Shown one piece after another: positions 1-24,493 of a stretch of 64,000 nucleotides of DNA. The notes beneath the pieces were generated by a model that saw only the letters and a list, made by a program, of their open reading frames with translations, was not told where the DNA came from and did not search any database. The translations under genes and the position numbers were made by a program. This stretch comes from Desulfonauticus sp. (GTDB taxonomy: Bacteria; Desulfobacterota; Desulfovibrionia; Desulfovibrionales; Desulfonatronovibrionaceae): the NCBI GenBank assembly GCA_030950395.1, contig JAUZRP010000038.1, positions 1 through 64,000 of the forward strand. The letters are read 5' to 3'. Numbering within the stretch: the stretch's first letter is position 1; the number at the start of each line of letters is the position of its first letter.

Positions 1-302
1 TTGTACCAAAGAACCTCTCAAGTATAGGAAAAATATTTATGTTATACAGATATGTCACAAAAAAAGCTACTTATGCTCTTCCAGTAAGAGCTTAATCAGT
101 TTTTTCTACTCCGGAAATTTTCAGTTTCTTTTTTCTATAATTTTTGTTATACATCTTTTTAAATCTTCCACCTGCCTCAGTATTTTTTGTCTTTTCAAGA
201 CTTTTGTTAGTTATATCAAAAAGTTACCCATAGGTGAAGAGCTTTTTTATATCAAAATCGCTCAAATTAGGAAGATATAATTAAGTAAGATATAACTAAG
301 AT
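1..302. other. gene-free start of window
   Basis: No intact gene is visible. The minus strand from about 200 down to 60 reads as short lysine/leucine-rich peptide stretches in changing frames, which could be the remnant of a small coiled-coil or antitoxin gene, but no family can be named. A short hairpin (GCTCTT and AAGAGC arms) lies at about 74-91. One arm of a dispersed 18-bp repeat lies at 254-271. Confidence 0.4.
254..271 (+). repeat. 18-bp dispersed repeat arm, copy 1
   Basis: The 18 bases beginning AAAATCGCTCAAATTAGG recur with one or two changes at 1939-1956 (inverted) and 2314-2331 (direct), and with one change as the left arm of the hairpin at 2289-2307 (inverted). Copy 1 and the inverted copy at 1939-1956 bracket the decayed toxin-antitoxin and cassette genes. 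Confidence 0.6.
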
Positions 303-641: not shown

Positions 642-908
642 ATGCCTACAATTTCGATGTTTTTTGGAATTATCATCCGGATGTACTGTGCTCCGGCGGA
701 ACATGAACCAGCCCATATTCACGCTTATTATCAAAATTATAAGGCAGCTATTGATATAGAAAGTGGAGAGGTAATGGCGGGAGAACTACCCAAAAAACAA
801 CTTCGCCTAGTTCAAGCCTGGATCGAAATTCATAAAGAAGAATTGTTGGCAAACTGGAGATTAGCTCAAAAAGGAGAAACACCTTTTAAAATTGAACCTC
901 TAAAGTAA
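642..908 (+). CDS. DUF4160 domain protein
   Basis: An 88-residue protein starting MPTISMFFGIIIRMY and containing the EHEPAHIHAYY and AWIEIHKEELLANW blocks that mark DUF4160. The length is full for the family. DUF4160 genes often sit next to DUF2442 genes, as here, and the pair is usually listed as toxin-antitoxin-like, although biochemical function is not established. The start ATG has no clear Shine-Dalgarno and lies directly at the broken end of the PIN pseudogene, so the junction looks like a recombination boundary. The downstream partner follows after 18 bp and ends in an attC-like site, so both genes may be one integron cassette. Confidence 0.8.
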   Translation: MPTISMFFGIIIRMYCAPAEHEPAHIHAYYQNYKAAIDIESGEVMAGELPKKQLRLVQAWIEIHKEELLANWRLAQKGETPFKIEPLK

Positions 909-926
909 TTTTGAGGAGTGGAAATC

Positions 927-1166
927 ATGTATTTAGGAGTTAAAGAGGTGCAGGCTTTAGATGATTATAAATTAAAACTAAAATTTGAAAATAATGAGGA
1001 AAGAATTTTTGATTTGAAACCTTACCTTAATTTAGGAAAGTTTTCCGAACTTCAGGATCAGGAGTTGTTAAAAAAAGTAAGGGTTAGTTTTGATACTATT
1101 GAATGGCCAAATGGCATAGATTTAGATCCAGAATTTCTATACAAACACTCAAAAAATGAAACCTAA
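927..1166 (+). CDS. DUF2442 domain protein
   Basis: A 79-residue protein of the DUF2442 family, recognised from the opening GVKEVQALDDYKLKLKFENN, the block FDLKPYL, and the end WPNGIDLDPEFLY. The ATG at 927 is preferred because GAGGAG lies 8 nt upstream; a GTG in frame at 918 overlaps that ribosome site. It is co-directional with the DUF4160 gene and probably cotranscribed. DUF2442 proteins are small and often predicted as the antitoxin or DNA-binding partner of DUF4160, which I cannot verify. Its stop codon TAA lies inside the R'' box of the attC-like site, the usual arrangement in integron cassettes. Confidence 0.8.
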   Translation: MYLGVKEVQALDDYKLKLKFENNEERIFDLKPYLNLGKFSELQDQELLKKVRVSFDTIEWPNGIDLDPEFLYKHSKNET

Positions 1167-1245
1167 CAAGTCGCTCCACCTGACCACCATTCCGCTGCGT
1201 CCTTTGGGCTTGCGTCTTGTCGGCTGGTGACCGTGGGCGTTAGCG
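1161..1245 (+). other. attC-like integron recombination site
   Basis: An 85-bp GC-rich island starts ACCTAACAAG and ends GGGCGTTAGCG, matching attC R'' (RYYYAAC) and, less exactly, R' (GTTRRRY) core boxes. The internal arms CCACCTGACCACC and GGCTGGTGACCGTGG pair imperfectly with bulges, as the L boxes do in folded attC bottom strands. The stop codon of the preceding gene is embedded in the first box. No integrase gene and no second attC are seen, so this would be a solitary site. Confidence 0.6.
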
Positions 1246-1290
1246 TTTAAATACAAACTCGGTGTCTAAAACATATAAAGGAATATGGAA

Positions 1291-1470
1291 ATGGAACTAA
1301 AAGAAAAAATTAAGAAAGAGATCGATTTGATACCAGAGGAATATCTACCTCAGCTTGAACAATATCTTAATGCAATAAAATGCAGAAAAAGAAGACGGCT
1401 ATGTATCAAAAAAATACATTTAAAAGGTAAATATGATAATCTAAAAATAAGAAAATTAGCATATGAGTAG
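1291..1470 (+). CDS. antitoxin-like protein of a PIN module
   Basis: A protein of about 59 residues (ATG at 1291 placed 8 nt after AAAGGA; an ATG at 1285 is also in frame). It has an N-terminal amphipathic helix (KEKIKKEIDLIPEEYL), a basic patch KCRKRRR and the C-terminal motif LKGKYDNLKIRKLAYE, which is typical of VapB-like antitoxins encoded directly before PIN toxins. The stop at 1470 is 2 nt before the start of a broken PIN gene. The antitoxin frame looks intact while the toxin is destroyed, a common decay state. Function as an antitoxin is inferred from motif and position only. Confidence 0.7.
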   Translation: MELKEKIKKEIDLIPEEYLPQLEQYLNAIKCRKRRRLCIKKIHLKGKYDNLKIRKLAYE

Positions 1471-1472
1471 CT

Positions 1473-1885
1473 ATGAACAGCTCAATATTAGTTGACACAA
1501 ATATACTGATCTATGCTATTGATGCTGACTCTCAAACGAACGGGCATTGACGTTTTTGTCAGATTCCTCATTGAAACTTTTCACCACTTCTAAAAATATT
1601 TCTGAATTTTTGGTTGTATTGACCAGGGATCCGGAAATAAATCTATCTTCCATTTAATGTTTAGAGATCTTAAATGGCCTTCTGAATGATATCGTCATTT
1701 TCTATCCTACACCCATGTCAATGAATGTCTTTCAGGAATTAGTTCGTAAATACAACCCTCGTGGTTTATGGATTCACGATGTAGAAATAGCCAGTATTGG
1801 TATCGCGCATGGCATATCCACGATTGCCACTAATAATGTTGCTGATTTCAAGCGTATTACTGAATTGGAAATTATAGCAATATGA
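1473..1885 (+). pseudogene. PIN-domain toxin, frameshifted remnant
   Basis: The frame opens at ATG 1473 with SSILVDTNILIYAIDAD, the canonical first acidic motif of PIN toxins (DTNILIYA), then breaks after about 22 codons. Later frames give KLFTTSKNISEFLVVLTR and, from about 1718 to 1885, NVFQELVRKYNPRGLWIHDV followed by IATNNVADFKRI. The last two match the second half of the PIN fold, with the HDV and NNVADF acidic motifs. Several frameshifts are needed to join them. It pairs with the antitoxin-like gene just upstream, so this is a dead VapBC-type module. Confidence 0.75.
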
Positions 1886-10203: not shown

Positions 10204-12249
10204 TTACCCAATCCGAAACAATTTCCTACTATTGTATTCTGCTTGTTTACCTTTATTCCATTGTTTTACTGGTCTGTAATATCCAACCACTCTAGTATAG
10301 ACTTCTGCTTCTTGGCCGCATTTAGGACAAATAAAATGTTCTCCTTCTAGATAACCATCCTGCTTACAAACCGAAAAAGTGGGTGTAATGGACAAGTAAG
10401 GCAATCTGGTATTGGACAATGCCTTTACGATAAAGTTACACAAGGCATCTTTATCGTAAACTGCCTCACCCAAATAAGAGTGAAAAACCGTACCACCTGT
10501 ATATAGTGGTTGTAATTTGTCTTGATGCTCTAAGGCTTCGAATATATCATGGGTAAAATCTACTGGTAAATTGGTAGAATTGGTATAATAAGGTACTCCA
10601 TTACCTGAAGTATAAATATTGGCGTATAACGATTTATCTATTTTAGCCAATCTATAACTAGTACCTTCTGCAGGAGTAGCTTCTAAATTATACAAATTGC
10701 CGGTTTCTTCCTGAAATTTACGGGTTAATTCTCTTAAGTGGTCTAAAACTCGGATCATCAACCGAGTACCTTCTTCAGTTTCAATACCTTTACCCAACAA
10801 ATTCATACAGGCTTCGTGCCCGCCTACCAATCCGATAGTGCTAAAATGATTTTTATAACCCACTTTTAAATATCTTTTAGTAAAAGGAAACATATTTTTT
10901 TCTAAATTGTCTGCGATTAATTTTCTTTTAAATTCTAAAGAATCTTTGGCCAGTTCGGCGTATTCTGTGATGAGATTTAAAAAGTCTTCTTCATTTTGGG
11001 ATAAATAAGCTAATTTGGGGAGATTTAGAGTAACTACTCCAATAGAACCGGTTAAATCGCCTGCTCCAAAAAGCCCACCCGTTCTTTTTTTGAGCTCTCG
11101 CAAATCCATTTGCAATCTACAACACATTGAACGCACGTCTTCTGGTTTTAGGTCAGAATTAATAAAATTTTGAAAATAAGGCACTCCATACTTACCAGTA
11201 AGCTTTAAAAGCAATTCACCCACTTCGCTATCCCAGGGAAAATCAGAACTTACATTATAGGTAGGGATAGGGAAACTAAAAATACGGCCGTGATAATCGC
11301 CAGCCAACATTACTTCTAAAAAGGCCTTATTGATCCATTCCATTTCTTTTACAAATTCACCATAAGTGCTGTCTTGAAATTCTCCACCAATAATTACTGG
11401 TTCTTTGGCAATGTGTTGTGGAGGAACTAAATCAAAAGTAATATTAGTAAAAGGAGATTGTCCGCCCCATCTGGATGTAGTGTTGAGATTAAAAACAAAT
11501 TTTTGAATCGCCTGTTTAACTTCGTCATAGGTTAATTTATCGTAAGCAATAAAAGGCGCTAAATAGGTATCAACATTATTAAAAGCTTGGGCGCCCGCCC
11601 ATTCATTTTGTAGTGTGCCAAGGAAATTTACCATCTGTCCCAAGGCAGAATCAAAGTGCCTAGCAGGCCCAGCAGAGCAGCGTCCTTCTAAATTAAAACC
11701 TTCCAATAATAAATCTCTAAGACTCCAACCTGCACAATAACCCGCCAATCCAAAAGATAAATCGTGAATATGAAAATAGCCTAAGTTGTGGGCTTCTCTG
11801 ATCTCTGCTGGATATTTTTCTAAAGCATACCTAGCTTGCACAGACCCAGAAAGATGGAGCATAAGCCCCTGAAAGGAATGGGCCAAATTGGCATTTTCGT
11901 GCACTCTCCAGTCAGTTTTATCCATGTATTCATCAATGATTTTACACACGTCTAAATAACTTTTCTTTTGTTCCCTGATTTCTCTTCTTTTTTCACGGTA
12001 AAGAATGTATTTTCTGGCTACATCATACAACCTATTTTCCATTAAAACCAGTTCGACCATATCTTGTACTTGTTCCTGATCTGGAATTTCCACATCTTTT
12101 AATTTGTCTTCCACTCGAAGAGCCAAACGTTTAGCCAGTAAAGGATCTTTAATTTTACAGGCTTTAAGCGCCTTTAAAATGGCCTCGGCAATCCTATCTA
12201 CGGCCCAGGTCTCTAAACGACCATCTCGTTTCCTAATTTGTTTAGGCAT
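10204..12249 (-). CDS. nrdD: anaerobic (class III) ribonucleoside-triphosphate reductase
   Basis: A 681-residue enzyme that reduces ribonucleoside triphosphates to deoxy forms without oxygen, using a glycyl radical. An ATP-cone regulatory domain fills about residues 1-95 (IRKRDGRLETWAVDRI). The catalytic barrel follows. The C-terminus has the zinc site cysteines (FSVCKQDG, FICPKCG) and the radical loop RVVGYYRPVKQWNKGK with the glycine near residue 656. Length is normal. It lies 91 bp downstream of its activase gene nrdG, with a terminator after it. It is the only ribonucleotide reductase in the window, consistent with anaerobic life. The ribosome site AAGGAGG precedes the ATG. Confidence 0.97.
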   Translation of the reverse strand: MPKQIRKRDGRLETWAVDRIAEAILKALKACKIKDPLLAKRLALRVEDKLKDVEIPDQEQVQDMVELVLMENRLYDVARKYILYREKRREIREQKKSYLDVCKIIDEYMDKTDWRVHENANLAHSFQGLMLHLSGSVQARYALEKYPAEIREAHNLGYFHIHDLSFGLAGYCAGWSLRDLLLEGFNLEGRCSAGPARHFDSALGQMVNFLGTLQNEWAGAQAFNNVDTYLAPFIAYDKLTYDEVKQAIQKFVFNLNTTSRWGGQSPFTNITFDLVPPQHIAKEPVIIGGEFQDSTYGEFVKEMEWINKAFLEVMLAGDYHGRIFSFPIPTYNVSSDFPWDSEVGELLLKLTGKYGVPYFQNFINSDLKPEDVRSMCCRLQMDLRELKKRTGGLFGAGDLTGSIGVVTLNLPKLAYLSQNEEDFLNLITEYAELAKDSLEFKRKLIADNLEKNMFPFTKRYLKVGYKNHFSTIGLVGGHEACMNLLGKGIETEEGTRLMIRVLDHLRELTRKFQEETGNLYNLEATPAEGTSYRLAKIDKSLYANIYTSGNGVPYYTNSTNLPVDFTHDIFEALEHQDKLQPLYTGGTVFHSYLGEAVYDKDALCNFIVKALSNTRLPYLSITPTFSVCKQDGYLEGEHFICPKCGQEAEVYTRVVGYYRPVKQWNKGKQAEYNSRKLFRIG

Positions 12250-24218: not shown

Positions 24219-24316
24219 ATACCACTCCTTCATCTATAAATTAAAATGCCACGGCTACAAATTTTGGATATATCTTTAAGAAGAGCTAAAGAAGGAAAAA
24301 GGAAGGTGTTTAAAAA

Positions 24317-24487
24317 CCCGGAGGGCCGTACAGTAAGATATTTTGAACCCCTTTTGTATAGGTGGGCGCCAAAGTATCTCCTTTAGGCTTCCTCTTGTAT
24401 AAGAGGCCTGCACACCAGAGATACACAGCGGCTCCCAAGAGGTAAATGTTGGCTCAAAATAATACTTACTTGCACAAACCCTCCAGG
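24317..24487 (-). ncRNA. ssrS: 6S RNA
   Basis: On the minus strand, directly after zapA, the 171-nt region starts CCTGGAGGG and ends CCCTCCGGG, giving a closing stem. Inside, TTTTGAGCC pairs with GGGGTTCAAAA, a large central region stays open, and GCCTCTTATACAAGAGGAAGC forms an apical hairpin. This is the closing stem, central bubble and terminal stem layout of 6S RNA, which binds sigma-70 RNA polymerase. The position next to zapA is conserved in many proteobacteria. Exact ends are estimated. Confidence 0.85.
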
Positions 24488-24493
24488 TTAAGT

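Follow-up and report, generated by a model that had tools for sequence, protein, structure and literature searches.

A single attC-like site stands behind a DUF4160/DUF2442 gene pair near the start of the window (the whole stretch of DNA that was analysed, 64,000 nucleotides from contig C105 of a Desulfonauticus genome), which raises the question of whether this is a true integron recombination site, how it came to stand there and from where its sequence was obtained. The reading favoured here, with a probability of about 0.8, is that the site is a true attC, that it sits in one remaining piece of a chromosomal integron that has decayed, and that the cassette it closes is a hybrid carrying an attC body of its own genome's type. 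The features of the cassette are as follows, where L090 and L091 are related cassettes from other families and C109 is a second contig of the same genome.

642 to 908, plus strand: DUF4160 protein of 88 aa (PF13711, E 9.6e-26), homologous to the DhiTA toxin
927 to 1166, plus strand: DUF2442 protein of 79 aa counted from ATG (PF10387, E 4e-17), homologous to the DhiTA antitoxin
1160 to 1245, plus strand: attC site, matched by model R3 (64.4 bits, E 7e-13) and also by models R1 and R2
1161 to 1167, plus strand: R'' box ACCTAAC; DNA identity with the L090 and L091 cassettes stops at 1169, directly past R'' (CCTAACAA)
1170 to 1238, plus strand: attC body of own-genome type (z 9.1–10.0 against the three C109 sites, z 0.6 against the L090 and L091 attCs)
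1173 to 1183, plus strand: L'' arm; alignments and pairing place two bulged (extrahelical) columns near 1176 and 1183
1224 to 1232, plus strand: L' arm, pairing with 1173–1182
1239 to 1245, plus strand: R' box GTTAGCG, beginning with GTT and lying inside GGGCGTTAG

The Pfam matches agree with the domain pair named in the initial annotation. The two genes recall the DhiTA toxin-antitoxin system, which consists of the domain pair DUF4160/DUF2442 and is reportedly functional in both Dickeya and E. coli (PMC8198452). In Thermus, plasmid persistence has been linked to a related pair (PMC12724237). As in DhiTA of Dickeya dadantii, the genes are adjacent with DUF4160 first and DUF2442 second (PMC8198452), whereas the pair here rides on an integron cassette and may be called toxin-antitoxin-like by homology. 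PADLOC returned no match for the pair, and the search of plasmids and viral contigs gave distant DUF4160 relatives only.

The stop codon TAA of DUF2442 (1164–1166) lies inside the R'' box, and R'' and R' are complementary (CTAAC pairing with GTTAG) in keeping with RYYYAAC/GTTRRRY, with R' GTTAGCG fitting GTTRRRY only in part, its final two bases being off consensus. The two bulged columns and an unpaired central spacer correspond to attC anatomy and are kept across related sites, and the minus strand would be the recombining one. The site has 60% GC and its surroundings about 23–43%. The initial annotation had pointed out the stop codon within an R''-like box, an R'-like box in the sequence given above, internal arms that pair with bulges and a GC-rich island, and every one of these traits was recovered, the two extrahelical columns appearing in the aligned related sites.

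Covariance modelling pointed in the same direction. Model R3 was built from 14 attCs of the congener G015 and of G017, a genome of another genus of the family, and includes no sequence of the present genome, which avoids circularity; in a search of 111 kb it matched window positions 1160–1245 at the score listed. The R3 structure carries changes on both sides in 9 of its 18 pairs, and its covariation score was reached by none of 500 shuffles. In an 11-site model that includes the window site, 87.4% of the cells were paired, compared with 17–53% when the structure was slid along the alignment, and a family-wide search found further related sites in G015 and G017. Folded thermodynamically by itself, the window strand did no better than shuffles (z 0.48), so the support for an attC is comparative. 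The initial annotation had read the site as the usual end of an integron cassette and had named the lack of a covariance-model match and of GTT at R' in homologous cassettes as grounds against it; the R3 match was obtained, and homologous cassettes have GTT. On this comparative evidence the site is a genuine attC that closes the DUF4160/DUF2442 cassette. An Rfam scan of the window gave nothing at the attC site, its sole match being a 6S RNA (RF00013) at 24311–24492 on the minus strand with 108 bits.

Searching the genome with the DNA of the window site identified three attCs on contig C109 that are 78–80% identical to it and span approximately 1.5 kb. On the minus strand of C109, a HicBA-like pair, a HigBA pair and a pair ending in DUF2283 are each followed by one of these attCs, and two models gave four attC matches in the whole genome. 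The relic of an intI gene was observed beside this array, about 300 bp beyond the HicBA-like cassette and divergently oriented to it, the arrangement of a canonical integron. Its two frames (L016:10405-10494 and 10496-10675), separated by a frameshift, match residues 4–33 (50%) and 35–94 (52% over 60 aa) of the intact IntI L189 from genome G019 with E 3e-21, and thus the relic comprises the first ~90 codons, the remainder of intI being missing. Other matches to the IntI profile in the genome were read as XerC, XerD and other tyrosine recombinases. The site is therefore not solitary as had been proposed, and the statement that no intI and no second attC are visible holds within the window and fails for the genome. 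These genome-wide statements rest on sequence and profile searches of a draft assembly of 172 contigs, in which an intact intI could sit unassembled. A functional intI adjoining its array is the mark of a complete chromosomal integron, and none adjoins the array in this draft. The C109 array, with three attCs in about 1.5 kb and no working intI, is like a CALIN (at least two close attCs without intI), and differs from it in keeping an intI relic; the lone window attC would not qualify. Toxin-antitoxin cassettes in chromosomal integrons help to keep idle arrays, and the toxin-antitoxin-like nature of the other cassettes in this genome's array fits such a role. A further candidate place for an intI was the glnD locus, since glnD neighbours it in G015; the corresponding locus on C13, where TPR and lpxB genes stand beside apparent yidC and jag, carries neither intI nor glnD, and glnD queries found no match in this assembly.

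Relatives retain integrons in various states. The congener G015 encodes an intact IntI of 408 aa (400 bits, over the family cut-off) and has 15 attC matches, its attCs and cassettes being divergent from the IntI, and the congener G014 has an IntI fragment only. In G019, an intact IntI and three attCs are spread over four separate contigs, one to each. The IntIs of G015, G019 and G020 (L029, L189 and L190) have an extra N-terminal stretch, the TIGR02249 match starting well inside the frame, and this stretch is the part that survives in the relic; the relic is closer to the Desulfofervidaceae IntI than to that of the congener. Identical attC/cassette pieces recur at contig ends of G015 (end of C1, C7 and start of C11; L034, L035 and L037), with 600 bp identical between L035 and L037, and the G015 array is probably longer than seen and partly duplicated.

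The origin of the window attC was approached through the closest relatives of its cassette. When bacterial genomes were scanned, the gene pair turned up again in L090 from Thermodesulfobacteriaceae (DUF4160 protein 93% identical) and in L091 from Desulfofervidaceae (90%), both with an attC after the genes and an R'' on the same stop codon. The window DNA is 87.1% identical to L090 and 83.0% to L091, in each case over 536 bp and ending at attC position +10, sharply past CCTAACAA, whereas the alignment between L090 and L091 (80.5%) continues through the attC. Correspondingly, the attC bodies of L090 and L091 resemble each other (z 6.4–7.1), and the body in the window resembles those of its own genome and not theirs, as the z values listed above indicate. 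The local divergence is small where homology abruptly ends, because only 3 of 84 positions differ from L090 in the last 28 codons of DUF2442; at four-fold sites of DUF4160, 10 of 30 differ. In the protein tree, the window, L090 and L091 form a group (100/97) within which L090 and L091 pair (98/52), and the tree does not point to which lineage changed its attC. The window cassette would accordingly be a hybrid in which the genes and R'' are common to cassettes of other families and the attC body is that of its own genome, the swap at R'' having occurred in either lineage. Between window positions 1092–1169 and L090, the 3' end of the cassette genes (86/89) is much closer than the remainder (~85%), as would be seen after a more recent exchange of this segment.

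Two accounts would dispense with an exchange, namely that the attC body outpaced the genes in divergence, or that the gene pair became a cassette twice. The sequence of an attC is weakly constrained, but L090 and L091 are more distant from each other than either is from the window and have nevertheless kept related attCs, while the window attC is unlike theirs and like its own genome's. Moreover, identity to L090 is about 97% (86/89) across the final 89 bases before the break, and a score as low as the observed one arose in 1 of 500 runs at a simulated divergence of 0.3 and in 37 of 500 at 0.4. In favour of these accounts, TAAC supplies a stop codon, so that R'' often coincides with one, and the distant relatives L142 and L168 also end in R''; against them, most non-cassette relatives have other stop contexts. 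Taken together, these accounts without exchange are unlikely.

Further swaps were sought by comparing the cassettes of eleven genomes by their proteins, and two further cassette families had genes in common and attC bodies that were not. G015_2316 and G020_6215 are 74.7% identical over 470 bp with the alignment ending at +10, and G015_5786 and G019_5102 are 77.9% identical over 569 bp with the alignment ending at +11. For G017_1797 the alignment ends at +19 with the G020 member of the first pair and at +40 with its G015 member, the attC being partly related. At about 75–78% DNA identity, plain divergence of the attC is possible in these two families, and the window cassette is the clearest case of the three.

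These comparisons suggest that cassettes can exchange the very site that makes them mobile. It is rather more probable than otherwise that attC bodies are swapped at R'', a cassette that arrives in a new host keeping its genes and R'' and being able to gain a resident body, perhaps by way of a rare IntI cut in the top strand (TAA/C). In attC recombination the cut normally falls in R' on the bottom strand, and the body stays with its gene; recombination of the top strand is rare and then takes place in R'' (PMC2727003; PMC4792948). From this we infer a tentative mechanism, with perhaps one chance in three, in which IntI on rare occasions recombines the folded top strands of two attCs by cutting R''. 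Such an event would leave the genes of one cassette attached to the attC body of its partner, and the predicted junction, TAA/C, falls within the motif where identity ends.

Exchange by homologous recombination between group IIC-attC introns residing in two attCs, followed by loss of the introns, is an alternative route that would place the junction in the same motif. According to PMC7923331, these introns insert at TTGT/T of the attC bottom strand, corresponding to that TAACAA motif; the proposal of Leon and Roy (2009) that such introns join genes to attCs is mentioned there as well. No match to a group II intron family was found in 127 kb of these arrays, and this route is considered improbable. 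A passage of PMC1382264 suggests gene conversion among the attC (59-be) sites of Vibrio, which would likewise yield attCs of the host type on shared cassettes; the idea is put there in general terms, whereas the present case consists of explicit pairs with one breakpoint just past R''.

How the cassette came to its present position was judged from its flanks, in which the following features were recognized.

1 to 272, plus strand: end of an IS-like repeat; contig C105 starts here, and C109, with its three-attC array, ends in the same 271 bases at 99% identity
253 to 271, minus strand: terminal repeat CCTAATTTGAGCGATTTTG, with 11 copies at two or fewer mismatches in this genome
303 to 640, plus strand: broken PIN-like toxin frame (IYMDCCFYQPFDEQSD ... 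SDALHLACNE), running directly into the DUF4160 start
1285 to 1470, plus strand: 61-aa ORF that looks like a VapBC-type antitoxin; Pfam gave no family above cut-off and the label is our own reading
1473 to 1885, plus strand: broken PIN-like (VapC-like) frame, labelled from its translation and without Pfam support
1939 to 1957: weaker copy of the terminal repeat
2289 to 2331, no strand assigned: inverted pair of the same terminal repeat facing over 43 bases, MITE-like

The piece at 303–500 gave no Pfam match, and the PIN label is a reading of the translation. Copies of the terminal repeat were found neither in two congeners nor with the reversed control, and a second 43-base MITE-like palindrome of it lies at G000:C111:47295-47337. 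No transposase was seen in the IS-like element, which is cut off at the contig ends. Since the ends of C105 and C109 share this IS-like repeat, both cassette regions start behind a copy of it, and it probably caused the assembly to break at these two contigs.

The initial annotation had proposed that the cassette may have been inserted at a secondary site, and in this account an integrase from elsewhere put a single cassette at an attG site. The window indeed holds one attC only, and lone cassettes away from intI occur, for instance in G019, where the L091 cassette is one of them; off-target insertion is also an accepted origin of attC clusters without intI (PMC8618304). The flanks do not bear the account out. 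A secondary-site insertion would be clean, with both boundaries in intact non-integron DNA, and the clean 5' boundary is absent here because the PIN-like frame runs straight into the DUF4160 start; no attC lies between that frame (303–640) and DUF4160, no other 5' boundary is left, and attC model searches found none behind the frame at 1473–1885. The missing boundary could reflect decay after insertion, but the flanking genes are broken and toxin-antitoxin-like, and the same IS-like repeat precedes both the window cassette and the C109 array. A decayed integron thus explains the site better, and the window site most likely belongs to the remains of one, secondary-site insertion being left with a small share. 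In G019 itself, the DUF4160-DUF2442 cassette (L091:3522-3581, G019:C3) stands alone with IntI elsewhere and has GAT, not GTT, at R'; it may be a true secondary-site insertion.

Under the decayed-integron reading, a sequence of events may be proposed. When IntI was active, the bottom strand of 1160–1245 would have folded into a hairpin with R''/R' and L''/L' paired and two bases bulged, and IntI would have cut this hairpin in R', moving the DUF4160-DUF2442 cassette. The intI gene would then have been lost in the lineage save for its frameshifted first ~90 codons. Copies of the IS-like repeat now stand before both the C109 array and the window cassette, and we infer that IS activity probably scattered the pieces of the integron. 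The window cassette would now be fixed, with its neighbours broken and its 5' boundary gone. The sedentary chromosomal integrons of Xanthomonas with inactivated intI offer a parallel: their intI is truncated or frameshifted, leftover cassettes are conserved, each attC array is of a single type, and insertion sequences lie around them (PMC12444791). In contrast to these, the present relic belongs to a small-genome, anaerobe-like lineage and lies on two contigs behind a shared IS-like repeat, and the attC body of one of its cassettes differs from those found in the closest relatives of that cassette. The last alternative, that the site is no attC and its inverted repeat belongs, for example, to a terminator or a repetitive element, would suit the unremarkable single-strand folding energy but has practically no chance, being refuted by the independent R3 match, the covariation, the sister sites in arrays and the intact IntI of a congener with the same attC family.

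The point of specialist interest is the exchange of attC bodies at R'', which touches two open questions, namely how cassettes arise and what keeps the attCs of a taxon nearly uniform. On the former, the authors of PMC4792948 were aware of no reliable model of cassette genesis. If true, such exchange would help to explain uniform, taxon-specific attCs even on cassettes that are shared across taxa, and matching genes with differing, host-type attCs and a break just past R'' would provide a countable signature of it. The attC type has been used to infer the origin of resistance cassettes (PMC8352920); if attC bodies are exchangeable, it may reflect the host array in which a cassette last resided and not where its gene originated.
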